Source: Clostridiales bacterium
GTDB lineage: Bacteria; Bacillota; Clostridia; Lachnospirales; Lachnospiraceae
Assembly: GCA_020859985.1 (NCBI GenBank)
Contig: JAJBVD010000026.1
Coordinates: 1-64,000 of the forward strand
Reading direction: 5' to 3'
Length of the DNA: 64,000 bases
Position 1 is the first letter of the stretch. Every line of letters starts with the position of its first letter. A model generated the notes under the pieces. That model was not told the origin of the DNA. It was given only the letters and a program-made list of their open reading frames with translations, and ran no database searches. Below, one piece after another: positions 6,595 to 64,000 of the stretch. The translations under genes and the position numbers were made by a program.

Positions 6595-6969
6595 ATGAAA
6601 AGAGAATTAGGGGTTTCAAGGTGTGGGCTTGCTTGCTGCCTTTGCTCAGAAAACACCTACTGTTCAGGCTGTGATTCTGGAGAGTGCCCTGATAAAGACT
6701 GGTGCGAAAACAGAAAATGCTCCATAGAAAAGGGATTCAATCACTGCTATGAATGTTCCGAAAACTGTAGAAAAGGTATTTTGTCAAAAATAAAGCCATA
6801 TAGTTTTAGTCAGTTTATCAAAAGATACGGCGAAGAACGGTTGCTGGATTGTTTGGAGGAAAATGAAAAAAGGGGTATCCTTTATCATAAAGACGGAATT
6901 AACGGTGATTATGATAATTTCTCCGATGTGGAGCAACTGATAGAATTCATATTGACAGGTAAAAGATAA
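6595..6969 (+). CDS. DUF3795 cysteine-rich protein
   Basis: Protein of about 124 residues with a dense N-terminal cysteine cluster (RCGLACCLCSENTYCSGCDS, then further Cys pairs to about residue 60), as in the DUF3795 family, which is thought to bind metal. The C-terminal half is helical and charged. The ATG at 6595 has GGGAGAG seven bases upstream. Role unknown. Confidence 0.75.
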   Translation: MKRELGVSRCGLACCLCSENTYCSGCDSGECPDKDWCENRKCSIEKGFNHCYECSENCRKGILSKIKPYSFSQFIKRYGEERLLDCLEENEKRGILYHKDGINGDYDNFSDVEQLIEFILTGKR

Positions 6970-6993
6970 ATTCCAGTTTTTCGGTGAGATGTG

Positions 6994-7110
6994 ATGAAGG
7001 AACGAAAAGAGATATTGGACTACGGGATGACGCTGCCAGATGTGTATATGGACGCGCCGTTCCATAACAACAATTGGATCCTGCTTTCATTGATGGATGG
7101 GGTATGGTAG
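6994..7110 (+). pseudogene. N-terminal fragment of an MmcQ/YjbR family protein
   Basis: Thirty-eight codons starting MKERKEILDYGMTLPDVYMD, then APFHNNNWILLS, matching the start of MmcQ/YjbR (DUF419) DNA-binding-like proteins. Intact members run to about 110-120 residues; here the frame stops at 7110 and nothing recognisable follows. A remnant. Confidence 0.7.
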
Positions 7111-7134
7111 AATGCGAGGGTACACTTAAGTGTA
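7108..7134 (+). promoter_or_regulatory. Possible -10 box and palindromic operator before GNAT gene
   Basis: TAGAAT at 7108-7113 could be a -10 box, with only a weak -35. It is followed by a perfect 14-bp palindrome TACACTTAAGTGTA at 7121-7134, about 23 bases before the GNAT start. An operator is plausible but unproven. Confidence 0.35.
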
Positions 7135-7157
7135 AATCGGAATTTATGGAGGATATT

Positions 7158-7715
7158 ATGAATTACGAGCCAAAAGCGATATGCCTGAAAAACGGGCAAT
7201 CAGCATTTTTTCGTACCCCGTTTGTCACAGATTCTGAGGCGGCAGCCATGATGAAGTTTTTAAGCACATGTGCGGAGGAGACAGAGTTTATTATCCGTTA
7301 TCCTGAGGAGTGCACAGAAACGCCTGCGCAAGAGGCTGCATATCTGGACAACATCAACCAATCTGAGAACAGGCTTATGATTGTCTGCGAGATTGACGGC
7401 GAAATCGCTGGAAACTGTCAGATTGTATTTAACAATAAAATCAAAACGAGGCATCGAGCAGAGGTAATGATTGGTATTCTTCAAAACTATTGGGGGCTTG
7501 GAATTGGAACGGCAATGTTTGAGGAGATGATCCGAATTGCGGAAAGCAGGCAGGTGCGCCAGATCGAGCTGGAATATATCGAGGGAAACGAGCGGGGACG
7601 AAGACTGTATGAGAAGATGGGCTTCGTGCAGTACGGAGAACGTCCGGACGCGATTTGCTTCAAAGATGGAACGATGCGAAAAGAAATCCTGATGATACGA
7701 AAAATGTGTTCATGA
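7158..7715 (+). CDS. GNAT family N-acetyltransferase
   Basis: 185-residue acetyltransferase. The acetyl-CoA loop is ILQNYWGLGIGTAMFEEM (about residues 110-127), followed by the GNAT beta5/alpha4 pattern EYIEGNERGRRLYEKMGF. Substrate unknown; the family includes ribosomal-protein and small-molecule acetyltransferases. Start chosen at ATG 7158 with GGAGG five bases upstream. Confidence 0.85.
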   Translation: MNYEPKAICLKNGQSAFFRTPFVTDSEAAAMMKFLSTCAEETEFIIRYPEECTETPAQEAAYLDNINQSENRLMIVCEIDGEIAGNCQIVFNNKIKTRHRAEVMIGILQNYWGLGIGTAMFEEMIRIAESRQVRQIELEYIEGNERGRRLYEKMGFVQYGERPDAICFKDGTMRKEILMIRKMCS

Positions 7716-7800
7716 ATGGTGGCACTGAATGTTAAAGCAACTTCCAGTTTATAGTTGAATTGGATAGACTGAAAATGAAATTGAAGGGGAACTGCCGCAT

Positions 7801-8325
7801 ATGAAGAAAAACATGATTACTGCTACAGTAGTGTTCCTGCTGGCCGCAGTCATATTTAAAATTACATATGATTGTACTGGCATTTCGGCATTTTATTCCA
7901 TGATGGTAACCTTCGGCACTGTATTTTATCATTTTGGTATGCGGCTGGCAGTCGGAGGGATCGTCAATGCCAGATTTCATAACCGCATGAACTACAGGAG
8001 AAAGTGGTTCTGTGAAAAAAACTTTGAGAAAAATCTGTATAAGATGCTGAGGGTGAAAAAGTGGAAAGAACGGGTTCCAACGTTTAGTCCGGAAACTTTT
8101 ACATTCAAAAGGCATCAGGCGGAGGAGATAGTTCAGGCATCATGTCAGGCTGAAGTGGTGCATGAGATCATTATGGTTTTCAGCTTTGTGCCGTTGGTGT
8201 TTTCCATCTGGGCAGGCGATGTAGCAGTCTTTCTGATTACATCCTTTGCGGCGTGTCTTCTGGATCTTGTATTTGTGATTGTGCAGAGATTTAACCGTCC
8301 GAGACTGTTCCGTCTGATCCGGTAA
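7801..8325 (+). CDS. Small membrane protein, unknown function
   Basis: 174 residues with about four hydrophobic segments (near 5-22, 28-50, 120-140, 143-160) and a basic middle. The middle motif NLYKMLRVKKWKERVPTF recalls the W-K-x3-P region of small membrane acyltransferases such as the CrtO type, but the match is too thin for a functional name. The ATG at 7801 follows GAAGGGG. Confidence 0.65.
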   Translation: MKKNMITATVVFLLAAVIFKITYDCTGISAFYSMMVTFGTVFYHFGMRLAVGGIVNARFHNRMNYRRKWFCEKNFEKNLYKMLRVKKWKERVPTFSPETFTFKRHQAEEIVQASCQAEVVHEIIMVFSFVPLVFSIWAGDVAVFLITSFAACLLDLVFVIVQRFNRPRLFRLIR

Positions 8326-8415
8326 ATGCCCGATTCCACCCGGATTCTCCTTTTAAGGGGTGGAAATGCCAGTGATAAGCGGATAAGATTTCCTCAAAAA
8401 CAGGAGGAGTTTGTT

Positions 8416-8898
8416 ATGGATCAGATATTGATTGGTAGCTACATTGCACAGAAAAGAAAAGAGAAGAATATGACACAGGCGAAGCTGGCGGAGCGACTGG
8501 GTGTGTCGAACAAAACTGTTTCCAAATGGGAGACGGGAAAGTGTATGCCTGATTACAGCGTGATTGAACCGCTCTGCAGTGAACTGGAGATTACGGTTGC
8601 GGAACTGATGGATGGAGAGAACGCGGTGGATAACAGTGTGCGCACGTATGATGAAACGCAGATTTTAGATCTCATTAAGAGAACACAGATGCTTGAAAAG
8701 GATAAGAATATCCAGAATGGCGTCCTGTTGATCGTGATGGGAATTTCACTTCTTTTCCTGCATTATTGCGTTGGCAGTGATGAAGGAAGCATTGTAATGG
8801 ATTTTATTTCCGGCCTGCTTCTGGGAATCTCGATTCCGGTAATGCTGGTGGGCACATATGTGGCTGCAAGAGGAGCGGCAGAAAAAGCGGGGAAGTAA
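8416..8898 (+). CDS. XRE family regulator with C-terminal membrane helices
   Basis: 160 residues. The N-terminal helix-turn-helix (KNMTQAKLAERLGVSNKTVSKW) is typical of XRE/Cro repressors; two hydrophobic helices sit at about 103-120 and 130-150. Membrane-tethered XRE regulators of this kind are common in Clostridia, with targets unknown. ATG 8416 has AGGAGGAG upstream; an earlier in-frame ATG at 8326 lacks one. Confidence 0.8.
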   Translation: MDQILIGSYIAQKRKEKNMTQAKLAERLGVSNKTVSKWETGKCMPDYSVIEPLCSELEITVAELMDGENAVDNSVRTYDETQILDLIKRTQMLEKDKNIQNGVLLIVMGISLLFLHYCVGSDEGSIVMDFISGLLLGISIPVMLVGTYVAARGAAEKAGK

Positions 8899-8974
8899 AG
8901 GTAAGCGTTGGACATTAGATTTTCATTTACAGGGGCATTATAAGTACGAAATCGAAATTTGAAAAGGATACCAA

Positions 8975-9172
8975 ATGGCAGAAATAAATCAGAATGATAT
9001 CATAATTGATATTAGAAGGGTAGCCGTAAAACTAAATCAAAACAAATTGACAAAACAAGAGTATGCAGAAAATGGCGGCCGATATTCGTTTTCTTTTTTT
9101 GACGAGTATGAGGATGAAATTGGAAGCTTCGCAAATAATGTTGAGCTGGCAGGATTAAAATATATGGCGTAG
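8975..9172 (+). CDS. Small homing-endonuclease-associated-repeat protein
   Basis: 65 residues resembling one homing endonuclease associated repeat (RRVAVKLNQNKLTKQEYAEN, then GGRYS and ending AGL). Such repeats usually occur in longer proteins with HNH domains or several repeats, so this may be a fragment. AAGGA lies a few bases before the ATG. Confidence 0.5.
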   Translation: MAEINQNDIIIDIRRVAVKLNQNKLTKQEYAENGGRYSFSFFDEYEDEIGSFANNVELAGLKYMA

Positions 9173-9204
9173 CTTGTTGAAAAATCGGGATATGGAGGTA
9201 AGCG

Positions 9205-9705
9205 ATGAATAAAGAATTCAGAAGAAAAGATAGGGCTGTAACTGACATCAATCAAATCATCAAAATTATTGATCAGGCCAAAATCTTACATCTGGGGTTA
9301 GTTGATAGTGGATTCCCTTATATTGTTCCACTCCATTATGGATATGAATATGATAGCAATAGGGATATGTTTATTTTTTATATGCATGGTGCAAAAACAG
9401 GACGCAAGATTGAATTGCTCAGAAATAATTCCAATGTCTGTGTTGAACTTGAAACAGATGTAGAACTTGATTCTGCCGGTGACATCCCGTGTGAATATGG
9501 CTCTTTTTATTCATCTGTAATAGGACAAGGCTGTGCGTCAATAGTCGATGGTATAGAAGAGAAAAAAAGGGCATTAAATCTACTGATGGAGAATCAAACG
9601 GGAAGGACTTTTGAATTCACTGAAAAAATGGTGGCAGCTGTTGCTGTAATTAAGATAGAAATCAAGGAATATACGGCAAAAGCAAGAGTAAAAATGGCAC
9701 AGTAG
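9205..9705 (+). CDS. Pyridoxamine 5'-phosphate oxidase / NimA-like flavoprotein
   Basis: 166 residues matching the split-barrel FMN-binding family that includes 5-nitroimidazole resistance (Nim) proteins: MNKEFRRKDRAVTDINQIIK, a hydrophobic strand, VPLHYGYEYD, FYMHGAKTGRKIELLRNN, and CVELETD. Probably binds FMN and reduces a small substrate; drug resistance cannot be concluded from sequence. Ribosome site GGAGGTAAGCG before ATG. Confidence 0.8.
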   Translation: MNKEFRRKDRAVTDINQIIKIIDQAKILHLGLVDSGFPYIVPLHYGYEYDSNRDMFIFYMHGAKTGRKIELLRNNSNVCVELETDVELDSAGDIPCEYGSFYSSVIGQGCASIVDGIEEKKRALNLLMENQTGRTFEFTEKMVAAVAVIKIEIKEYTAKARVKMAQ

Positions 9706-52650: not shown

Positions 52651-54465
52651 TTGACAAAAAACGCGAAAGGGATCGGACTTTATCTGGCGGGCGTCCTGAT
52701 CATTCTGATCCTTCTTATGACGTTCCGCGGCGGGATGGAAGCCGCGCAGACGTGGAACAGCAGTGAGCTGAATGAGGCTCTGGAAAATGATGAGGTTGCG
52801 GCTGTTACTATCACGCCCAACGAGGAGACACCGACCGGTTCCCTGAAGATTGTGCTGAAGACGGGCGACGTCCACTACGTGAATGTCCTGAATGTCGAGA
52901 CCGTGGCGGAGGAGCTGGAGGCCTATGACTCCATCGAACTGGAGATTGAGGACGTGGAGCGCGAAAGCGTGGTGCTGACATGGCTGTTTCCGACCGTGAT
53001 CATCTGTGTGGTGATGATTATGATGTTCACGATGATGAACCGGCAGGCGGGCGGCGGCAATTCCCGGATGATGAATTTCGGCAAAAGCAGGGCAAAGATG
53101 ATCTCTCCGGACGCAAAACGGGTGACCTTTGAGAATGTAGCCGGATTAAAAGAAGAAAAAGAGGATCTGGAGGAGATTATTTCCTTCTTGAAGGAGCCGG
53201 ACCGCTTTGTCAAGATTGGTGCGCGCATTCCCAAGGGTGTAATCCTTGTGGGACCTCCGGGTACCGGTAAGACGCTGCTTGCCAAAGCAGTCGCCGGAGA
53301 GGCGGGCGTGCCGTTTTTCTCCATATCCGGTTCGGACTTTGTGGAAATGTTTGTCGGCGTAGGTGCGTCGCGCGTGCGCGATCTGTTTGAGGAGGCAAAA
53401 AAGCATCAGCCGTGTATCGTCTTTATCGATGAGATCGACGCGGTCGCAAGACGGCGCGGTACCGGCATGGGCGGCGGTCACGATGAGCGTGAGCAGACGC
53501 TGAACCAGCTGCTGGTGGAGATGGACGGCTTTGGCGTCAATGAGGGCATTATCGTGATGGCGGCGACGAACCGTGTAGATATCCTTGACCCGGCTATCCT
53601 GCGTCCGGGACGCTTCGACCGCCAGGTATCGGTGGGCCGGCCGGATATCAAAGGCCGGGAGGAGATTCTGGAGGTGCATTCAAAGGGCAAGCCGCTGGCG
53701 GACGATGTGGATCTGAAAGAGACCGCGCGCACGACGGCAGGCTTTACGGGTGCAGATCTGGAGAACCTGATGAATGAGGCGGCTATCATGGCTGCGAAGG
53801 AAAAGCGCGCCTATATCTGCCAGTCAGACATCAACCGCGCGTTTATCAAGGTCGGGATCGGCGCAGAGAAAAAGAGCCGCGTGATCTCCGAGAAGGAAAA
53901 GCGGATTACCGCTTACCATGAGTCAGGACATGCCATCCTGTTTCATTTGCTGCCGGATGTCGGACCGGTGCATACGGTTTCCATTATACCGACCGGGCGC
54001 GGCGCAGCCGGCTACACGATGCCTCTTCCGGAAAAGGATGAGATGTTCAATACGAAGGGGCAGATGGAGCAGAACATCATCGTCAGCCTCGGCGGCCGTG
54101 TCGCGGAGGAGCTGATCATCGGAGACGTGACGACCGGCGCGTCACAGGATATCAAGCAGGCGACCGCGATCGCCCGCGCGATGGTGACGAAATACGGCAT
54201 GTCGGAGAAAGTCGGCCTGATCAATTACGACAATGAAGACGATCAGGTATTCATCGGAAGAGACCTTGCGCACGCCCGCGCGTACGGAGAGAAGATCACA
54301 TCCCTGATTGATGAGGAAGTGAAGCGCATTGTCGATGAGTCACATGAAAAAGCGCGTGAGATGATTTCGGCGCACATTGATGTGCTCCACGCGAGCGCGG
54401 CGCTGCTGATCGAGAAGGAAAAAATCGGCAGGGAAGAATTCGAGGCGCTTTTTGAGACGGAGTGA
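52651..54465 (+). CDS. ftsH: ATP-dependent zinc metalloprotease FtsH
   Basis: 604 residues. Two membrane helices (about 7-23 and 112-128) flank an extracytoplasmic domain. AAA+ core: Walker [12 protein letters not shown], Walker [16 protein letters not shown], second region of homology [20 protein letters not shown]. Protease: zinc motif HESGH. Degrades membrane and short-lived proteins. Start uncertain: TTG 52651 has AGGAG ten bases upstream; GTG 52621 in the same frame lacks a good site and abuts the repeat hairpin. Confidence 0.93.
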
Positions 54466-54470
54466 GGAAC

Positions 54471-55058
54471 ATGGCGAAGCACAATGCCCGCAACACCCGC
54501 AGCCGCATCGTTTCGGCGGCCTGGGAGCTGTTTTACGAGAATGGATATGATGAGACGACGGTGGACGAGATCGTAGAACGCTCTGGGACATCAAAGGGCT
54601 CCTTTTATCATTATTTCGCGGGGAAGGACGCCCTGCTTTCGTCTCTGTCCACACTGTTCGATGAAAAATATGAGGAGCTGAACAAAGACATTCCCGAAGA
54701 TATGACCAGCTTTGACCAGCTGATCTACCTGAACCGTGAACTGTTTTTCATGATAGAGAATTCCATATCGCTGGATCTGCTCGCCAGACTGCTCTCCACA
54801 CAGCTGGTCACGACGAGCGAGAAGCATCTGATGGATCAGAACCGTTATTACTTCCGTTTGCTTCGCAAGATCTGTCTGGACGGGCAGAAGAAGGGCGAGC
54901 TGAGGGACGACATTTCCGTCAACGAGATGGTGCGTACTTACGCGCTGCAGGAGCGGGCGATGATGTATGATTGGTGCATCTGCGGCGGGAATTATTCACT
55001 GAGCCAGTATTCCTCCACGCAGCTGCCGCTGCTGCTAGGATATCTGCGAAAAACCTAG
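54471..55058 (+). CDS. TetR family transcriptional regulator
   Basis: 195 residues. HTH TVDEIVERSGTSKGSFYHYF preceded by RIVSAAWELFYENGYDETTV is textbook TetR; the ligand-binding C-terminal domain is not recognisable to a family. Begins five bases after ftsH, so probably read with it. Targets unknown. Confidence 0.88.
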   Translation: MAKHNARNTRSRIVSAAWELFYENGYDETTVDEIVERSGTSKGSFYHYFAGKDALLSSLSTLFDEKYEELNKDIPEDMTSFDQLIYLNRELFFMIENSISLDLLARLLSTQLVTTSEKHLMDQNRYYFRLLRKICLDGQKKGELRDDISVNEMVRTYALQERAMMYDWCICGGNYSLSQYSSTQLPLLLGYLRKT

Positions 55059-55408
55059 TCTTCGCTTTGCGTTATTGCTTTTACACAAAATGCGTATAAT
55101 TGCGAAATATCATTTGACGTAGTTTCCCATACTCTGTCAATATCAATAGCACCGTAGTTGTGCGCAAAGATATTTCGCATTCCTTTGACAGCGGGCCAGT
55201 AAATCTGCTCTCTTGTCTTCAGCCTGAAATCATCAGATAGATGCCCGGTAAGCTCACCTATTTGTAATAGACTCATACAAACGGAATTGCGATAATCCCG
55301 ATCGCTTTCGAATATTGCTTTGTCGTTTCCAAAGCGATTAACTGTATTTTGAATATCCAGACAATAATCTCTGATATGTTCTAAAACATCAACATCCATC
55401 TTTTTCAT
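55055..55408 (-). CDS. hepT: HepT-like HEPN RNase toxin (DUF86)
   Basis: About 117 residues. The HEPN active-site motif R-x4-H-x-Y is present as RNIFAHNY, with LLQIGELTGHLSDDF upstream, as in HepT. The Tyr is the site adenylylated by MntA to silence the toxin. It overlaps the end of the MntA gene. Start chosen at ATG 55408, but 55399 or 55423 are possible. Its last bases overlap the TetR stop. Confidence 0.82.
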   Translation of the reverse strand: MKKMDVDVLEHIRDYCLDIQNTVNRFGNDKAIFESDRDYRNSVCMSLLQIGELTGHLSDDFRLKTREQIYWPAVKGMRNIFAHNYGAIDIDRVWETTSNDISQLYAFCVKAITQSED

Positions 55409-55721
55409 AGATAAGCTTTTCATCCTCTCTGATATTGGAAACGAATTTACGTGTCCTGTCAACGTTCGCCTTATGTTCGAGTGCTTCTGTGGTTACAAGA
55501 TCAATGGGTTTCTTTAAAGCCGTGCTTAATTCATCGTATAATTTGCCAAGTGCAAAAATTCCTTTAAACTGGCCGCCTTCAATACGAATATCTATGTCAC
55601 TGTCCAAAGAGGCTTCTCCTCTGGCATAAGAACCGAACAGCCAGGCTCTGTTTATACCAAAGGAAAGAAATATTGGCTTCACGATATTCTTAATTTCCTG
55701 TTCTGCGTAAATTTCACTCAT
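55389..55721 (-). CDS. mntA: MntA-like nucleotidyltransferase antitoxin
   Basis: 110 residues, minimal nucleotidyltransferase fold. WLFGSYARGEASLDSDIDIR contains the GSYARG and DxD motifs required for catalysis; KKPIDLVTTEAL follows. It blocks HepT by transferring AMP units to the HEPN tyrosine. The two genes overlap, antitoxin first. The MITE-like element begins about 30 bp upstream. Confidence 0.85.
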   Translation of the reverse strand: MSEIYAEQEIKNIVKPIFLSFGINRAWLFGSYARGEASLDSDIDIRIEGGQFKGIFALGKLYDELSTALKKPIDLVTTEALEHKANVDRTRKFVSNIREDEKLIYEKDGC

Positions 55722-55751
55722 TTTATCACGCCCTTCATCTGTCTGATTGTT

Positions 55752-55875
55752 TTATAGTGAATGACAAAATTCTTTTGTCATTCACTATAACTGATGCACA
55801 CAGACGCGCATGGAATGGCTGCTTTGCAGCCTCGTGTCTGGCGCAAAGTAAAACGACTTACGTCGTTTACTATAA
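55752..55875. mobile_element. MITE-like element, 124 bp
   Basis: Left end: TTATAGTGAATGACAAAA (55752-55769), loop TTC, and its perfect complement to 55790. Right end, read inward: TTATAGTAAACGAC, matching 12 of the 14 left-end bases TTATAGTGAATGAC. A middle hairpin with CAGAC/GTCTG lies between. No coding capacity. The inverted ends suggest a non-autonomous element, but no target duplication is certain. Confidence 0.5.
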
Positions 55876-56150
55876 TTTAGTATATCTTATTAATGAATCC
55901 GACGCAAGGAAAATTAAAAGAATATGACGAACGAGAATTATAATTATTGATTTATGAATTGTATAAAATTAAATACATTAATTAGTCTAATAAATAAATG
56001 CATAAAATAAGCAGAATTTCCATAAAAAAATAAAACGATTTTTAAATTTAGTATAGACTTCATTCTGTATTGCAGTCTATTTTTCGTGGGTGTATACTGT
56101 CTCTTAATTGCGGCCTGAGAAAAATCGATGGAGGCAGCTGTGTGTTTCTG
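55876..56150. other. AT-rich gap upstream of putP
   Basis: No gene. Very AT-rich to about 56070, with several TATAAA/TATAGA-like hexamers but no convincing -35/-10 pair. The putP promoter is probably here. Confidence 0.5.
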
Positions 56151-56177
56151 GTAACTGTGGAGGTACTGAACAGTTTC
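56151..56177 (+). repeat. 27-bp palindromic repeat, copy in putP leader
   Basis: GTAACTGTGGAGG..AACAGTTTC; the last bases weaken the pairing. Confidence 0.6.
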
Positions 56178-56234
56178 TGTTTCTGAACAGCTGCCGATTC
56201 AGAGCAGCAGGCTGATGGAAAGAGGAGGAACATT

Positions 56235-57767
56235 ATGGATTCAAGGAGTATTTTGGTTCTGGCAACAATGATCGTGTATCTGGTCGGGGTAGTCGGGATC
56301 GGCGTCTGGTTCTCCAGATCGAACAAATCTTCCGGCGACTTTTATCTGGGCGGCCGGAAGCTTGGACCGTTGGTGACGGCGATGAGTGCCGAGGCGTCGG
56401 ATATGAGCTCGTGGCTGCTGATGGGACTGCCGGGCGTGGCGCTGCTCGCGGGCGTACCGGAGGCGGTTTGGACCGCGATTGGTCTGGCAGTCGGTACCTG
56501 GCTGAACTGGTTTTTTGTGGCGAAGCCGATCCGTCACTATTCACAGCACATTGGCGCGACGACGATCCCGGAATTCTTTTCCAAACGCTATCACGACGAC
56601 AAACACATCCTGTCGCTGATCGCAGCGGTCGTCATTGTCGTATTTTTCGTGCCGTACACCGCATCCGGCTTCAATGCCTGCGGTACACTGTTTTCCAGTC
56701 TGTTCGGTGTGAACTATCTGACAGCGATGCTGATCTCAGCGGTAGTCATTACCCTGTATACGACGCTGGGCGGCTTCATGGCGGCTTCTACTTCGGACTT
56801 TGTGCAATCCATCGTGATGACGATCGCGCTGATCGTTGTTGTGTTCTTTGGAATTAACGCAGCCGGCGGCTGGTCGGCGGTCGTATCGAATGCGCAGTCT
56901 CTGCCGGGCTATCTGAACCTGACGCAGGGCTATGACGCAGCAACCGGTGCGGCGGCATCCTATGGTCCTCTGACCATTGTATCTACGCTGGCATGGGGGC
57001 TTGGCTATTTCGGAATGCCGCACATCCTGCTGCGGTTTATGGCGATCGAGGATCCGAAGAAGCTTCCGCTTTCCCGCCGTGTTGCGACCGTGTGGGTCGT
57101 GATTTCTATGGGCATAGCGGTTTTGATTGGTATCATTGGAAACGCGATGATCAGTGCGGGAGCCCTGGAAGCGCTGTCTTCCTCTGATTCCCAGAGGATC
57201 GTCATTAAGATCGCGGAGCTGATCAGCACGCACGGCGTCCTTCCGGCGATCGTGGCGGGCGTGATCCTCTCCGGTATCATGGCAGCGACGATGTCCACGG
57301 CGGATTCACAGCTGCTGGCGGCTTCCTCCAGTGTCTCACAGGATATTGTCCGTGATACCCTTGGCGTGAAGCTTTCGGATAAGGCACAGATCATTATCGC
57401 GCGGTGCACCGTTGTGGCGGTTGCTGTGATCGCGATGATCTGGGCCAGAAATGAGGGCTCAGTGTTTTCCATCGTCTCATTTGCATGGGCGGGCTTCGGC
57501 GCGGCGTTCGGTCCTGTCGTTCTGCTGGCTCTGTTCTGGAAGAGAAGCAATAAATGGGGCGCGATCACCGGCATGATCGCCGGCGGCGCGATGGTATTCA
57601 TCTGGGAATATGTCATCAGCCCGCTGGGCGGTATATTTGCCATCTATGAGCTGCTTCCGGCATTCCTGATCGCGATCGTGGTGGATGTGGTCGTGAGTCT
57701 TGCGACCGGCGCACCGGATAAAGCGATCGAGAAGGAATTCGACGAAGTGGCCGCGATGAAGGACTGA
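56235..57767 (+). CDS. putP: Sodium/proline symporter
   Basis: 510 residues, about 13 transmembrane helices, SSS family. Conserved: FYLGGRKLGPLVTAMSAEAS (about 36-55), ASDMSSWLLMGLPGVAL, the family signature near FGMPHILLRFMAIEDPKKLP, and MAATMSTADSQLLAASSSVS. Strong match to PutP. Imports proline with Na+, as nutrient or osmoprotectant. Monocistronic, with repeat hairpin upstream and terminator downstream. Confidence 0.92.
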   Translation: MDSRSILVLATMIVYLVGVVGIGVWFSRSNKSSGDFYLGGRKLGPLVTAMSAEASDMSSWLLMGLPGVALLAGVPEAVWTAIGLAVGTWLNWFFVAKPIRHYSQHIGATTIPEFFSKRYHDDKHILSLIAAVVIVVFFVPYTASGFNACGTLFSSLFGVNYLTAMLISAVVITLYTTLGGFMAASTSDFVQSIVMTIALIVVVFFGINAAGGWSAVVSNAQSLPGYLNLTQGYDAATGAAASYGPLTIVSTLAWGLGYFGMPHILLRFMAIEDPKKLPLSRRVATVWVVISMGIAVLIGIIGNAMISAGALEALSSSDSQRIVIKIAELISTHGVLPAIVAGVILSGIMAATMSTADSQLLAASSSVSQDIVRDTLGVKLSDKAQIIIARCTVVAVAVIAMIWARNEGSVFSIVSFAWAGFGAAFGPVVLLALFWKRSNKWGAITGMIAGGAMVFIWEYVISPLGGIFAIYELLPAFLIAIVVDVVVSLATGAPDKAIEKEFDEVAAMKD

Positions 57768-57870
57768 TGTGACGGGAGTATTGCCGCACAGTAAAGTTCT
57801 ACATGGGAAATGACAGGAAAGAAACAGAAGCGGCTGTTTTCAGGAAAAAGAATAAGCTAATAAGAAAGTG

Positions 57871-57915
57871 GAGGCAGCTCTGCGTTGCAATACAACGGAA
57901 GCTGTCTCTTCTTTT
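57871..57915 (+). terminator. Terminator after putP
   Basis: GAGGCAGCT (57871-57879) pairs with AGCTGTCTC (57900-57908), with GTTG/CAAC inside, followed by TTCTTTT. Confidence 0.65.
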
Positions 57916-57979
57916 GTAAAAAATGTGCAAAACAGAGACTGAAAATCTGCCGGAGAATATGAACACTTTATAAAAAGTA

Positions 57980-58008
57980 TTGAAAATCAGACGGGAATTC
58001 GTTATTAT
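57980..58008 (+). promoter_or_regulatory. Candidate promoter of the Pel-like locus
   Basis: TTGAAA (57980-57985), 17 bp, TATTAT (58003-58008). A tandem CATGATATAGA repeat follows at 58061-58082 in the leader. Confidence 0.55.
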
Positions 58009-58060
58009 GAAAAGACACGATGAAAAAAAGCAGGAATGACGTGCTGCCGTTTCTGCTGCT

Positions 58061-58082
58061 CATGATATAGACATGATATAGA
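58061..58082 (+). repeat. 11-bp tandem direct repeat in the pelD leader
   Basis: CATGATATAGA at 58061-58071 and again at 58072-58082, 45 bp before the start codon. Confidence 0.7.
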
Positions 58083-58127
58083 AAAGATACCGGGGAGTGT
58101 GAGGAACCGTAAGGGGCGGAAGATACT

Positions 58128-60305
58128 ATGGATGTATTGCTGGTTGGCGGCGCAAGCAGTCTGATGAATGCCATGATCGACAAACTGAATAAAGAAGGTC
58201 ATCGGATTTATGTGCTGACAGAGCATCGTTTTCGAAGCCCTCAGAACCGGAAGGTCTTTGAATACTATTATTTTCCGTATGACAGCGATTGTCTGAAGGA
58301 AGTGTTTGAGAGCATCAATCCACAGCTGATCCTCTGTATGGGGGCGTTTGATATCAATTATGACTGGACGGATACGCGCAAGGAGTCGGTCCGGTATTCG
58401 CTTGGCATCACGAATATTCTGACAGCGTTTGCGGCTCGTGAAAAAGGGAGACTGGTCTATCTTTCCTCAGATGAGGTGTACGGTGATTCTTATACGGTCA
58501 ATATTACAGAAGATACACCGGCGAGCGCGCGCGGCTTTCGGGCGATGGTGCTGGCACAGATGGAGCAGCAGTGCAAAAATTACAGCCGCCAGATGGATAT
58601 TGATGCGGTCGTGCTGCGGCTGGATCATCTGTATGCCGTGCCGCGCAAGGCCAGAGACTGCACGCATATCGGCGCGAAAATGTGTATTGAGGGGCTGAAG
58701 AGCGGAAAAATATCCGCTTCCGACCGTTACCAGCTTTCCATGCTGCATCTTCAGGACGCAGTGGATTTTATCTATCAGGTGTGTGCCTGTGAGTCGCATC
58801 AGAAGCCATTGTATAACCTTTCGTCATCAAAGATGATCTCGCAGATGGAGATTGCGCAGATCCTGCGCGATACACTCGGAGGAGATACGGAAATTGAGGA
58901 CAATTCCGTCGGCAGCGTGCACCGGGTCGTGCTCTCCAATGAAGCCTTTGCGTCGGAGTTTCACCAGTCTATCCGGCACGAGCCGCAGGAGACGTTCGCG
59001 CAGATGGCGACCTATATGAAAAAGCATCGGAACGCGTTTCTCACCGCGGATGGCGTCAGCGACAATTTCCTGAACCGCTTCCTCGGGAAATCAGCGTCGC
59101 TGTTCTGGGCGCTGCTGCCGTTTGCAGAGAATCTGATCTGCTTTATCCCGTTTTTTATGCTGAACAACCGTGCGACGGACAGCAAGTATTTTGCGAAGCT
59201 GGATTTTTACCTGCTTTATGTTTTATTGTTTGCTATCGTTCACGGGCAGCAGCAGGCAACGTTTTCCGCGCTGCTGTCTATTCTGGGCTATGTCTTCCGT
59301 CAGATGTATAACCGCAGCGGATTTGAAGTGCTGATGGATTATAATACCTATGTTTGGATCGCGCAGCTGTTTATCATCGGCCTGATCGTGGGTTATATGA
59401 AAGACCGGCTGAATGTGATGCAGGAGGAAAACCGGCAGGAGATGCACTACATGGAAGGCCGGCTGGATGATATTTCGGACATCAATACCAGCAATGCCAA
59501 GATGAAGAATCTGCTGGCTGATCAGATCATCAACGAGGAAGACAGTCTGGGAAAGGTCTATGAGGTCACGTCCCGCCTGAATAATTATGAGCCGGAGGAA
59601 GTGCTGTTCTACGCGGCGGATATTGTGGCAAAGCTGATGGGGAGCAAGGATGTGGCGATTTATACGATTGCCAACCGCTCATATGCGCGCCTTTATTCAT
59701 CGACCTCGACGCAGGCACGGGTGATGGGAAAATCCATTCAGTATACGGAAATGGACGATCTCTCGGAAGCGCTGAAGGAGCGGCGCGTGTATATCAATAA
59801 GAAGCTGGACGAGCGCTATCCGATGATGGCGTACGCGATTTATTCTGAGGATGAGATGCAGCTGATCCTGATGGTGTGGGGGCTTCCCTGGGAGCGCATG
59901 ACGCTCGCCCAGGCGGATACCTTAAGCGTCATCAGCGATCTGATCCAGAATGCAGTGCTGCGCGCGAACCGTTATCTGGAAGCGCTGGAGGACCGGCGGT
60001 ATATCAGCGGTACGCCGATCATGGAGGAGGAATCCTTTACCAAGCTGGTGCGGGCATATCTTGCCGCGCAGACGCAGGGGCTTACCGAATGTGCGCTGGT
60101 CGCGATCGATACCGGAGAATTTGCGATAGAGGAGGCGGCTGTAAAAGTACGGGGCGTGTTCCGGCAGACGGATTACCTCGGCGAGATGAACGGAAAGCTG
60201 TATCTGCTTTTGTCCAATGCGACCGAACAGGACGCGGGATTTGTTCTGGAACGAATCCGCAAGCTGGAGATGGACGCGCACGTGCAGAAGGGAATCGATC
60301 TGTAG
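58128..60305 (+). CDS. pelD: SDR-PelD fusion: c-di-GMP receptor of a Pel-like locus
   Basis: 725 residues. Residues 1 to about 300 are an epimerase-like SDR (LLVGGASSLMNAMIDKLNKE, YLSSDEVYGD) in which the catalytic Tyr-x3-Lys is missing (FRAMVLAQME). Then four hydrophobic helices (about 325-425), a coiled coil, a GAF-like domain (about 470-620) and a degenerate GGDEF domain. The latter keeps the inhibitory-site RxxD (RQTD, 679-682), but the active site reads NGKLY instead of GGDEF. This matches PelD, the c-di-GMP-binding activator of Pel exopolysaccharide synthesis. PelE-like gene follows. Confidence 0.8.
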   Translation: MDVLLVGGASSLMNAMIDKLNKEGHRIYVLTEHRFRSPQNRKVFEYYYFPYDSDCLKEVFESINPQLILCMGAFDINYDWTDTRKESVRYSLGITNILTAFAAREKGRLVYLSSDEVYGDSYTVNITEDTPASARGFRAMVLAQMEQQCKNYSRQMDIDAVVLRLDHLYAVPRKARDCTHIGAKMCIEGLKSGKISASDRYQLSMLHLQDAVDFIYQVCACESHQKPLYNLSSSKMISQMEIAQILRDTLGGDTEIEDNSVGSVHRVVLSNEAFASEFHQSIRHEPQETFAQMATYMKKHRNAFLTADGVSDNFLNRFLGKSASLFWALLPFAENLICFIPFFMLNNRATDSKYFAKLDFYLLYVLLFAIVHGQQQATFSALLSILGYVFRQMYNRSGFEVLMDYNTYVWIAQLFIIGLIVGYMKDRLNVMQEENRQEMHYMEGRLDDISDINTSNAKMKNLLADQIINEEDSLGKVYEVTSRLNNYEPEEVLFYAADIVAKLMGSKDVAIYTIANRSYARLYSSTSTQARVMGKSIQYTEMDDLSEALKERRVYINKKLDERYPMMAYAIYSEDEMQLILMVWGLPWERMTLAQADTLSVISDLIQNAVLRANRYLEALEDRRYISGTPIMEEESFTKLVRAYLAAQTQGLTECALVAIDTGEFAIEEAAVKVRGVFRQTDYLGEMNGKLYLLLSNATEQDAGFVLERIRKLEMDAHVQKGIDL

Positions 60306-60428
60306 AAGGCACGGCTGGCCGCGGAGTATATACAAGCCGCAGGGGGCTGGCTGGCAGCGGATGTATCTGTATTAAGGAAACAGTTCAGGAAAAAGAGTGC
60401 CGTCGGGACAGAAAGGAGGTACAGCCGG

Positions 60429-61403
60429 ATGTGGGAGAGTTTTCGGAGCGTTTTGCGAGGCATCGAGCAGACAATACTGCTGCAGATACCGCGCTGGTTT
60501 GTACTTATGCTTGTCATAAATACGTTGGTCTCCCTGCTGTATCTGATTCTGGGACTTATTCTGCGCAGAAAAAAAGAGGGCGCCGCACAGTACCTGATCA
60601 ATACGGTTGTCATGCTGCTCTGTCCGGTGGTGGGTCCCCTGTTTTATATTTTTGGAACTTTTTTCCGGCATGCTCTGATGCGCCGCGAAGTCGATCTCAG
60701 TGATGTCATGTTCAGCAAACAGAGGATTCATTCTCTTTTGCTGGCAGATGTGGAAAAAGAGAGCAATCTGGTGCCGATGGAGGAGGCTCTGGCGGTCAGT
60801 GACAAGGCAAGTCTGCGCGGCCTGATGCTTAATGTAATCCGGGGGGATATCCAGAATTCACTGGCCTCGATCGCGCTGGCCTTAAACAGCGAGGACTCGG
60901 AGACGTCCCATTATGCGGCCTCTGTACTGCGGGACCAGCTGAATGATTTCCGTGCCTACGTACAGAAGCTTTACACACAGATCAAAGAGGCAAGAGAAGC
61001 AGGCGAAGGTGCCGCGGAAGAGGCGGCGCTTCTGATTACTTATATGGATCAGGTACTGGCGCAGCATGTCTTTACCGGACTGGAGCAGGAGACCTTTGTC
61101 CGGGAGATGGATGAAGTGTGTGAAATCCTGTATCAGGAGAAGCCGGGCGCGATGGAGAGCGATTTTTGTGAATCGGTTGTGCTGCGCCTGACGGAGATAG
61201 GGGAATATGACCGGGCGGAAGAATGGTGCGGCCGTGCGATCACGCTGTATCCGGAGCAGCTGTCCTCCTATACCAGCCGTATGAAGCTTTATTTCAGCGC
61301 CGGCTGGAAGGAAAAGTTTTTTGCGGCGCTGGAAGAGATCAGGCATTCCGACATCGTCATTGACAATGAGACGCTGGAGCTGATCCGTATGTTCAGCGCG
61401 TAG
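60429..61403 (+). CDS. pelE: PelE-like membrane TPR protein
   Basis: 324 residues. Two N-terminal helices (FVLMLVINTLVSLLYLILGL, TVVMLLCPVVGPLFYIFGTF) and a helical, TPR-like cytoplasmic part (SDKASLRGLMLNVIRGDIQN, EWCGRAITLYPEQLSSYTSR). Length, topology and position right after PelD fit PelE, a scaffold of the Pel synthase complex. Assignment rests on context. Ribosome site AGGAGGT before ATG. Confidence 0.7.
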   Translation: MWESFRSVLRGIEQTILLQIPRWFVLMLVINTLVSLLYLILGLILRRKKEGAAQYLINTVVMLLCPVVGPLFYIFGTFFRHALMRREVDLSDVMFSKQRIHSLLLADVEKESNLVPMEEALAVSDKASLRGLMLNVIRGDIQNSLASIALALNSEDSETSHYAASVLRDQLNDFRAYVQKLYTQIKEAREAGEGAAEEAALLITYMDQVLAQHVFTGLEQETFVREMDEVCEILYQEKPGAMESDFCESVVLRLTEIGEYDRAEEWCGRAITLYPEQLSSYTSRMKLYFSAGWKEKFFAALEEIRHSDIVIDNETLELIRMFSA

Positions 61404-61493
61404 GCGTAAAACGATTCCGAACAGTACCTCGCAATCGCTGCGAGGGAGCAATAAACAGACCGGAAAAGAGAAGGAAAGAAGGAGGATGACGGT

Positions 61494-63821
61494 ATGTCCA
61501 TGACGGTGCTGACAATCTTACAGTTTAGTGCCACGCTGTTCTGGTACCTTGTGCTGACGACGGGCATCCCTGCGCTGATCTTTTCCCGGAAGGTCTCCGG
61601 ATTCAGCCTGTCTGTCCGGTTTTTCTTTTATCTGCTGGTGGGAAATTTTTCCCTGATGAATCTGGTCTTTGCGCTGCAGCTGCTCCATATTTCGAACCGG
61701 GTGACGCTGACGCTTGGCACCATTGTGATGTACATGGTGATGGATCGCCTGAATAACCGCAGGGACTGGCGCTCTCCTCTTAATGCGTTAGTGAGGGTCC
61801 TGGAGCTTTATTTTGACGGACAGATGAAAACGCGCACCTTTTTTCTGCGAATCTTTCGTTTTATCGGGAAGCAGATCCGTCGCGGATTCTGCTTCATCGG
61901 CGCAAAGATAAAGGGAAGGGAGATGGAATGGATCGCGTTCGCCGCAGTGTCGGCGCTGATCCTCTGGCAATATGGCTGGAACCTGATCACAAACTACGCG
62001 TATTGTGCCTCTGATATCGTTGTCCATAACTACTGGATCAACAGCATGAGCCAGGGAGAAATTTTTGTGGCGGGCGTTTATCCATTTGGCTTTCACTGCA
62101 TCATCTATTATCTCCACGCGGTGATCGGGCTGGACACGTATGTGCTGCTGCGGGTATTTTATCTGGTGCAGACCTTTCTGGTTTATTTTTCTCTGCTGAC
62201 ATTTTTGAAGATCTGCTGTAAAAATCGTTATATTCCCTATATCGGCGTGCTGATATACGCGGGGCCCGGCATTCTGGCCGATGCGACGCGCTGGCGTTTC
62301 TGTGCCTCACTGCCGCAGGAATTCGGCATGGTCTTTATTCTGCCGTCGATTTTCTTTCTCTATCTTTTCTTCCAAAAAAAAGAGCAGGAATTAAGACTGT
62401 CGGCTGAGGAGACGGATTCGAACGCTGCGGCGAAGCCGAAGGACTCTTTCCTGTGTCTTGTGGCGTTCGGCATCGCCTTTTCCATGACGATTTCCGCTCA
62501 TTTTTATAATACGATGATCGCAGGAATCTTCTGTGCTGCCATAGCAGTTGGATACGGCTTCCGACTATTTCGAAAAAAATATTTCGGACGGGTTATGCTT
62601 ACTGGTATTTTGAGTGTGTTTCTTGCCATTCTTCCAATGGGGATCGCGGTAGCGATGGGGACACCGCTGGAGGGCTCACTGCAGTGGGGCATGAATATCA
62701 TCAGCACCGGCAGCGAGGAAGAGGAATCCGTGACGGAGACGGAAAGCGAGGAGGCGACGGAAGCGGAGAGCAGCGCCTCGTTGGAAAATTCGCGGTCAGA
62801 CGCAACGAAGACCACCTCCTCCGGCATGGCGGCCGGCGCAGGCTCCATCCTGTCTGCTCTGTGGGAGCGCGCTGCGGGCGTGGTGGAAGTGATTCAGGCA
62901 GAGATTAAGTACTATGTGCTGAAGGTTGATTATTATGAGTGCTCCATTGCATTCCTTATCCTGATGGCAGCTGTCCCGGCGCTGGGGGCACTGCTGCTTT
63001 TGTCCCGCAGATGGAGGGAGTATGGCGCAAGGATGCTTTCTACGGGACTGTGTCTGGATATGCTGGGTGTGCTGCTCTCGGCGGAAGAGCTGGGACTGCC
63101 TGCTCTGATGGACGGGTCGCGCTGCTCCATCTTCTTTGTGTTTCTCTCAGTGGCTGCCCTTACATTGCTGTTGGATGTACTGTGGCATTTTCTGACTGCA
63201 TGGATCAGGAACGGCAGAGTGAAAAACACAGCGCTTCTGCTCTGCGTTGTGCTGGCTTCTGCCGTTACGCTGCAGAGCGGCCTGGTGGACCGGGTAGAGG
63301 TTCAGGCGGTCTATGGGACCAATGGGGCAGTGACTTGCCTTACGAATATCATCCGGGATAATAAGGATTTTACCTGGACAATCTGCTCTGCAAATGACGA
63401 GCTGCGCATGGGGGAGGATCATGGATATCATTATGAGATCAGTGATTTCCTGTACGCAATGGAGAACTCCGGAGAGCTTGCGAATATTATCATACCGACG
63501 CAGTACGTGTATTTCTTTATTGAAAAGGTGCCGATTGATTACTACATTTCCGGCTATGGGAACAGCGGCCAGTCCATATCGGAGGAGGGAGCCGAACGGC
63601 TTCTTCCGTATGGCTCCAGCTCGGTGATCTATCAGCTGGAGAACCGGTGGATCATGATGTCACGTATGTATTACTGGGCGCAGGCTTTTATGGAGCTGTA
63701 CCCGAATGAGTTTCAGGTTTATTATGAGACGGATGAATTTGTCTGCTACTATATTGAGCAGAACACGTATTATCTGTACAATTTTGCCATCGACTACGGG
63801 TATAATAATGTGCTCACGTAA
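61494..63821 (+). CDS. Large polytopic membrane protein, GT-C-like, in Pel-like locus
   Basis: 775 residues with roughly 13 hydrophobic segments. The first large loop, YCASDIVVHNYWINSMSQGE then VYPFGFHCIIYYLHAV, has the acidic pair, His and YPxGFH pattern of GT-C/DUF6541-type polyprenol-sugar glycosyltransferases. A long Glu/Ser/Thr-rich loop (about 400-445) and a C-terminal extracytoplasmic domain rich in Tyr follow. Not one of the classical Pel proteins I know; it may add a sugar or modify the polymer. Exact reaction unknown. Confidence 0.6.
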   Translation: MSMTVLTILQFSATLFWYLVLTTGIPALIFSRKVSGFSLSVRFFFYLLVGNFSLMNLVFALQLLHISNRVTLTLGTIVMYMVMDRLNNRRDWRSPLNALVRVLELYFDGQMKTRTFFLRIFRFIGKQIRRGFCFIGAKIKGREMEWIAFAAVSALILWQYGWNLITNYAYCASDIVVHNYWINSMSQGEIFVAGVYPFGFHCIIYYLHAVIGLDTYVLLRVFYLVQTFLVYFSLLTFLKICCKNRYIPYIGVLIYAGPGILADATRWRFCASLPQEFGMVFILPSIFFLYLFFQKKEQELRLSAEETDSNAAAKPKDSFLCLVAFGIAFSMTISAHFYNTMIAGIFCAAIAVGYGFRLFRKKYFGRVMLTGILSVFLAILPMGIAVAMGTPLEGSLQWGMNIISTGSEEEESVTETESEEATEAESSASLENSRSDATKTTSSGMAAGAGSILSALWERAAGVVEVIQAEIKYYVLKVDYYECSIAFLILMAAVPALGALLLLSRRWREYGARMLSTGLCLDMLGVLLSAEELGLPALMDGSRCSIFFVFLSVAALTLLLDVLWHFLTAWIRNGRVKNTALLLCVVLASAVTLQSGLVDRVEVQAVYGTNGAVTCLTNIIRDNKDFTWTICSANDELRMGEDHGYHYEISDFLYAMENSGELANIIIPTQYVYFFIEKVPIDYYISGYGNSGQSISEEGAERLLPYGSSSVIYQLENRWIMMSRMYYWAQAFMELYPNEFQVYYETDEFVCYYIEQNTYYLYNFAIDYGYNNVLT

Positions 63822-63847
63822 CTGTTCAGTACCTTCGCAGTTACGTG
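63815..63847. repeat. 27-bp palindromic repeat, inverted copy, extended arms
   Basis: CACGTAACTGTTC..GCAGTTACGTG, overlapping the stop region of the upstream gene; reverse orientation relative to the other copies. May act as its terminator. Confidence 0.65.
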
Positions 63848-64000
63848 CTCATATCCCTTTAATCATTACATGAGAAAACGACAGCCGGAGTGTTGTGCCT
63901 GAAAAGGCTCTGGGAACAGGGTGGTGCATCAATGTGCCTGACTGCGGGATTCCCGGATTTATGAGCAACCGGCAGAAGACAGGAAAGGAGGAACGTCCGG
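63848..64000 (+). other. Leader of a gene starting past the window edge
   Basis: No frame of note. The last bases include GGAAAGGAGGAACG, a strong ribosome site, so the next gene of the Pel-like locus should start just after base 64000. Confidence 0.5.

Follow-up and report, generated by a model that had tools for sequence, protein, structure and literature searches.

PelD proteins with a degenerate short-chain dehydrogenase/reductase (SDR) domain are known from streptococci, clostridia and actinobacteria, where the epimerase domains have altered cofactor and catalytic residues; those of Brevibacillus are possibly functional, and a non-epimerase role has been suggested for the altered ones (excerpts of Whitfield 2020, PMC7112168). 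PelDs have been grouped into four classes (Whitfield and Howell 2021, as cited in an excerpt of PMC12345266). Here we analyse a PelD of this kind, and the pel locus around it, in a 64 000-nucleotide stretch of DNA (the window) from a Clostridiales bacterium of the Lachnospiraceae (assembly GCA_020859985.1, contig JAJBVD010000026.1, positions 1 to 64 000, forward strand). Its architecture is not new: the protein is a member of the published degenerate-SDR subgroup with the GGDEF domain kept, and by itself it answers no new question. The locus, of a kind that we call type A, looks like a distinct, under-described variant and is the part worth following.

Like the degenerate-SDR PelDs described from clostridia, streptococci and actinobacteria, this protein combines a degenerate SDR domain with transmembrane and GAF parts in a Gram-positive pel locus; the GGDEF domain, which the excerpts report as absent only in streptococci, is kept here. 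Compared with the published degenerate-SDR pel loci, as far as the excerpts describe them, this locus has a gene for a putative membrane glycosyltransferase (GT) of the GT-C fold and a deacetylase homologue without active-site residues; a scan of ten downstream proteins gave no CotH, VTC or DUF4956. The PelD of Bacillus cereus ATCC 10987 shares the transmembrane-GAF-degenerate GGDEF arrangement, the RxxD motif and the third arginine, but has no SDR domain and is partnered by an active deacetylase, PelADA. PelX (a UDP-GlcNAc C4-epimerase; we take PDB entries 6wjb and 6wj9 to be this protein) is a separate active enzyme with NAD bound, whereas cofactor and catalytic residues are lost here.

We consider it fairly likely that this PelD belongs to a Pel-type synthase gated by cyclic di-GMP (c-di-GMP), that its SDR domain is a pseudo-enzyme, and that the type A polymer is decorated outside the cell and not deacetylated. 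A more specific version, in which Lachnospiraceae make a c-di-GMP-gated, Pel-derived glycan, side-chain glycosylation by the GT-C protein replaces deacetylation, and the SDR domain and the PelA homologue are pseudo-enzymes that hold the synthase, is offered tentatively, our doubt slightly exceeding our belief.

PelD and its predicted c-di-GMP site

The pelD gene and its parts are listed here, with residue numbers of the protein.

58128-60305, +: pelD, 725 a.a.; degenerate SDR, membrane helices, GAF-like domain, degenerate GGDEF (open reading frame (ORF) and AlphaFold model)
58128-59027, +: extended-SDR fold, residues 1-300; Tyr/Lys of the triad replaced by R138/L142, GxxGxxG and NAD acid lost
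59067-59435, +: membrane helices, probably four, residues 314-436 (secondary structure of the model)
59541-59987, +: GAF-like domain, residues 472-620 (model; Pfam GAF in some relatives)
60021-60287, +: degenerate GGDEF domain, residues 632-720 (model; tail profile against GGDEF chains)
60162-60173, +: RQTD, residues 679-682, I-site motif; R and D invariant
60189-60203, +: NGKLY, residues 688-692, where the GGDEF signature would stand; no cyclase site
60252-60254, +: R709, in the place of the third c-di-GMP arginine by order and spacing

An earlier note, made from the sequence alone, had read this gene as a PelD fused to a dead SDR domain with an intact I-site, and its coordinates and residue numbers (58128-60305, RQTD 679-682, NGKLY 688-692) are exact. 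Judged from sequence, this gene encodes the PelD of a Pel-type synthase: architecture, RxxD and synteny with PelE-like, PelF and PelG genes agree. R679 and D682 are two of only seven invariant columns in an alignment of 46 PelDs from the same family (46/46 each), and RxxD is present in all 53 rows that reach the site in a 54-row alignment (L057 is broken upstream of it). The R709 column has arginine in 45 rows out of 46 and lysine in one. The distance from RQTD to NGKLY matches what we take to be the RxxD-x5-GGDEF spacing of true GGDEF domains. The third c-di-GMP arginine is R402 in Pseudomonas aeruginosa PelD and R395 in B. cereus PelD (excerpts of PMC7112168). Predicted c-di-GMP enzymes are present in the genome: ten reading frames give 11 GGDEF matches, and there are four EAL matches. 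The I-site appears intact and suited to this ligand, and we expect PelD to bind c-di-GMP at RQTD (R679, D682) together with R709. No c-di-GMP riboswitch was found upstream of pelD in an Rfam scan of 54000-64000 (one chance snoRNA match, E 0.82).

The AlphaFold model, built with 46 aligned relatives (mean pLDDT 84.7, pTM 0.48), has an alpha/beta domain at residues 1-300, helices at 314-349, 360-372, 374-392 and 405-469 that fit four membrane passes (the long helix runs to 469), then a GAF-like alpha/beta domain (472-620) and a short GGDEF-like domain (634-719). The GAF-like domain and the degenerate GGDEF domain with RQTD, both claimed by the earlier note, are found in model and sequence, while Pfam sees them in relatives only: GAF is clear, for example, in L094 (1.8e-10), and GGDEF appears at E<=0.1 in four of the 46. 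The PDB chains matched by a profile of the cytoplasmic tail were all of the GGDEF kind, with 6khu at the top (E 2.4e-4).

The relatives were collected as follows. A related-locus scan gave one relative, the Lachnospiraceae locus L003 (86% identical), and the family from which the 46 PelDs come was taken from it. The transmembrane-GAF-GGDEF part of PelD was matched in 54 of 299 genomes of that family (its own included). A phylum search gave a match in 124 of 398 genomes, many of them weak and mostly to the C-terminal half only; nine of the strongest loci were used in one comparison and eight in the tree, the weak matches being left out. L095 is split between frames, and a single piece of it entered the former comparison unaltered. 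The 46-row alignment leaves out extended, broken, short or fragmentary ORFs (L014, L021, L023, L029, L031, L033, L050, L051, L052, L057, L058, L060 and L072) and repeat fetches of the same genes (L001, L004, L061-L071 and L073); L014, L021, L023, L029, L050-L052 and L057 are included in the 54-row alignment.

Deacetylase homologue and GT-C gene of type A loci

In a tree of PelD tails, a branch supported at 100/97 sets apart 29 of the 46 rows, this PelD among them (type A), and 17 rows form type B (87/83, which is under the tool's own threshold mark, in a tree whose bootstrap had not settled). Of the type B loci, L038 alone was run against Pfam; with DUF2194, PelF, PelG, CotH, VTC, DUF4956 and DUF4832, it has the published layout. 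Gene counts below cover 18 type A loci, each read over at least 12 kb, and 20 type B loci, and exclude L051, L052, L060 and L072 (short contigs or PelD fragments). The genes that follow pelD in our locus are:

60429-61403, +: pelE-like gene, 324 a.a., two predicted membrane helices, no Pfam family (position and synteny)
61494-63821, +: predicted GT-C-fold membrane glycosyltransferase, 775 a.a. (model, fold comparison, alignment)
contig 64001-65968 (4002-5969 of L002), directly past the window: DUF2194 protein, 655 a.a., in the PelA position
contig 66015-67526: PelF (NF038011, 363.7 bits; equivalog cut-off 100)
contig 67563-69137: PelG (PF16933, 502.7 bits; cut-off 29)

PelE was assigned by position only. 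The earlier note would have given up its PelD reading had PelF and PelG been absent downstream; both lie just past the window with scores above their cut-offs, and PelF keeps the EX7E motif.

The active site of B. cereus PelADA consists of D262, D263, H350, H354, R458 and H488; mutants at H350, H354 and H488 had no detectable activity, and this activity is required for biofilm (excerpts of PMC13254593). At the six equivalent positions our DUF2194 protein has V, N, S, T, I and W, and thus not the residues of an active PelA deacetylase (CE4/18/21-like). None of the 18 type A homologues keeps more than one of the six, whereas the type B proteins have DDHHRH in 18 of 18 examined (out of 20 loci; L045 and L046 have no DUF2194-matching ORF above 500 a.a. 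by BLAST). The type A and type B proteins were anchored to each other at YPVxN ahead of the Asp pair and at E-x-G ahead of the first His. On these residues the type A PelA homologue has apparently lost its metal and acid/base residues and looks dead. A search of its own genome found no second DUF2194 protein (one match), but the model used fails to detect at least one of the type A proteins (in G270). Here lies a puzzle: both B. cereus and P. aeruginosa need an active deacetylase to produce Pel (excerpts of PMC13254593), yet the site is lost in 18 of 18 type A loci.

The gene for the 775 a.a. protein separates the two types: a member of its family is found in all 18 type A loci and in none of the 20 type B loci. 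It is present, full or edge-cut, in 17 of the type A stretches, and in the 18th (G107:C22) it lies at 6870-9233, beyond the first stretch. In most type A loci it follows pelE (in L062, L065 and L073 it is about 10 kb from pelD). A whole-genome search found it in 6/6 type A, 0/19 type B and 0/16 PelD-less genomes (the search model included a row from each of three of these six), and in these 41 genomes it is never farther than about 10 kb from pel genes of type A. No Pfam or NCBIfam family matches the protein; its model has a predicted GT-C fold, and D174, within an SDxxVH motif, is invariant in 14 of 14 proteins and is a candidate for the acidic residue expected in the first outer loop of a GT-C enzyme. 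Most type A loci also carry a GT2 gene resembling polyprenyl-phosphate-sugar synthases and a gene for a small DUF2304 membrane protein. A GT-C transferase and a polyprenyl-phosphate-sugar synthase are shared with three-component extracytoplasmic glycosylation; in those systems, as excerpts of PMC11127046 describe them, O antigen serves as acceptor and a MATE protein as flippase, whereas here the acceptor would be the PelFG product and the GT2 is only alike. That DUF2304 serves as the flippase of the type A system is a guess. A literature search at the level of titles and abstract openings (PMC11841053, the single match for GT-C together with Pel polysaccharide, included at that level) found no GT-C gene or dead deacetylase in a pel locus.

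Several relatives differ in gene structure. The PelG-matching ORFs of three type B loci (L042, L047 and L054) are 1086-1091 a.a. long, about twice the usual length, and are perhaps PelG fused to the product of the next gene. L060 (6978-7802) and L072 (10121-11089) have ORFs of 274 and 322 a.a. with the GAF-GGDEF part of PelD only, at 44-46% identity to our PelD and with no BLAST match to other pel genes nearby in the stretch read; the genome of L060 (G163) also has a full PelD.

The degenerate SDR domain

Residues 3-220 of PelD match the Pfam Epimerase family (E 2.7e-16), and the SDR part of the model has the fold of UDP-sugar epimerases, PelX included. The comparison with PelX that the earlier note called for holds for this part, to which the aligned rows are confined. 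The positions of the triad Tyr and Lys hold R138 and L142 (with gap-free anchoring by E146), and Tyr is found at position 138 in none of the 46 rows, which bears out the claim of an epimerase-like N-terminus without Tyr-x3-Lys. The third Gly of GxxGxxG is Met in our protein and Gly in 0/29 type A PelDs, so that neither GxxGxxG nor the Ser-Tyr-x3-Lys of an active extended SDR or PelX-like epimerase is present. Further positions were assigned from what we take to be the NAD and UDP-sugar contacts of GalE. Among the 29 type A PelDs, Thr stands in place of the acid after strand 2 in 26 and no row has an acidic residue there, the equivalent of GalE N99 is Tyr or Phe in every row, the UDP-contact Asn is His in 18 and Asn in four, and the UDP-contact Arg is Phe, Ile, Leu or Val in 23. 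L090, an intact-SDR PelD from the same phylum used as a control, retains all canonical NAD and UDP contacts. As far as residues tell, the domain is a pseudo-enzyme: the usual contacts to NAD and UDP-sugar are gone, and so are the catalytic Tyr and Lys. Most simply, it stems from an epimerase once fused to PelD, and it may be retained to dock or scaffold the cytoplasmic complex.

One relative stands between these states: the PelD of L092 (241-2370) has an SDR domain with GxxGxxG, Asp, the N99 equivalent and Tyr, with Ser and Lys lost. By its residues it is a possible NAD-binding, non-catalytic intermediate.

The proposed synthase and other readings of the locus

Switching of the Pel synthase by c-di-GMP through the I-site of PelD is described for characterised PelDs (excerpts of PMC8461298 and PMC7112168). 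By analogy, our PelD, probably dimeric, would bind c-di-GMP at RQTD and R709; binding would cause a shift between the GAF and GGDEF domains and activate a PelD-PelE-PelF-PelG complex, which would polymerise a hexosamine polymer and export it, with exit through PelG. The type A polymer would then probably be glycosylated outside the membrane from a lipid-linked sugar instead of being deacetylated, while deacetylation is kept in B. cereus and probably in type B; the pseudo-deacetylase and the pseudo-SDR domain may have been retained as structural parts. If this is true, PelDEFG does not need deacetylation in order to work, a Pel-like polymer may lack charge and carry branches, and cationic Pel should not be assumed wherever 'pel' is annotated in these bacteria.

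Several points weigh against this reading. No PelD-named Pfam or NCBIfam model matches the protein at E<=1, and the solved PelDs are not among the PDB matches of the tail profile at E<=1, so the identity of PelD rests on architecture, RxxD and synteny. PelD itself has no Pfam GAF or GGDEF match at E<=1, and of the four helices claimed by the earlier note, which the model fits, a simple hydropathy script marks a single segment (325-343). The types were named after the gene orders were known, although the tail tree separates both; the tree holds the PelDs of 15/18 type A and 17/20 type B loci, the rest having been placed by similarity or layout. The equivalence of the deacetylase positions to B. 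cereus PelADA was set by motif order and near-constant offsets, not by direct alignment. The GT-C fold comparison has a large root-mean-square deviation and low Foldseek TM-scores (best 0.39 by model length), and the GT2 scores 68.5 bits against a PpgS NCBIfam cut-off of 370, that is, likeness only. The GT2 and DUF2304 were each not found in five of the 18 type A stretches, some of which end early.

Other roles for the SDR domain have to be weighed against docking. The earlier note had proposed that it senses NAD(H) or a UDP-sugar, so that PelD would integrate c-di-GMP with precursor supply. The UDP-sugar epimerase fold and the NAD motif that L092 retains despite its loss of catalytic residues would suit such a sensor, but the NAD loop, the acid, the N99 equivalent and both UDP contacts are replaced in most or all type A rows and kept in L090, and the UDP-contact positions are not conserved above the domain (2.10 against a mean of 2.21 bits, lower being more conserved; 1617 of 5000 random draws as low); we regard the sensor as quite improbable. 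It is rather unlikely, too, that the old pocket was rebuilt for another, perhaps anionic, ligand, with a basic residue 138 in place of Tyr plus T31, G32, Y90 and H167. Position 138 is Arg or Lys in 25/29 type A and 13/17 type B rows, T31 is found in 26/29 and Y/F90 in 29/29 type A rows, and in type A conservation at the NAD-contact positions exceeds the domain average (1.73 against 2.21 bits, a value reached in 3 of 5000 draws). Core strands taken as a control, however, are more conserved still (1.51 bits; 1 of 5000), the effect is absent from type B (2094 of 5000), and there is some circularity in the test, the contact list having been drawn up after the conservation table was known. A first test of pocket conservation, which had looked strong, was rejected since its position sets were picked post hoc; with the fuller contact list and the core-strand control, pocket conservation is indistinguishable from fold conservation.

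For the locus as a whole, the type A polymer may be unrelated to Pel (a capsule or teichoic-acid-like polymer), with PelDEFG as a borrowed synthase. This possibility was raised for Roseburia, whose pel genes lie within larger clusters and whose production of Pel was left open (excerpts of Whitfield 2020, PMC7112168), and the same caution applies here. The Roseburia loci likewise have pel genes beside GT1, GT2 and nucleotidyltransferase genes and are possibly of the same subtype; neither the excerpted text nor the S7 Fig legend mentions a GT-C gene or loss of the deacetylase site. The dead look of a deacetylase needed for Pel and the further GTs downstream of our pel genes also favour an unrelated polymer, while the PelF and PelG scores, far above their cut-offs, and the EX7E motif speak for a Pel-type product, and we think the alternative unlikely, though worth keeping in mind. 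That type A loci are simply decaying would account for two proteins without active-site residues, but the full-length ORFs, an I-site invariant in 29 rows, the recurrent gene set and the gain of the GT-C gene in 18/18 loci make this very improbable.

Two other observations concern the surroundings of the locus. Downstream of the pel genes (L002 16706-19273) there is a gene for an 855 a.a. protein with a GT2 and an NTP_transf_5 nucleotidyltransferase domain. Within the window, 55055-55721 on the - strand contains overlapping genes for a HepT-like ribonuclease (PF01934, 60 bits) and a small nucleotidyltransferase (PF18765/PF01909), a layout that we take to be that of a HEPN-MNT toxin-antitoxin pair.
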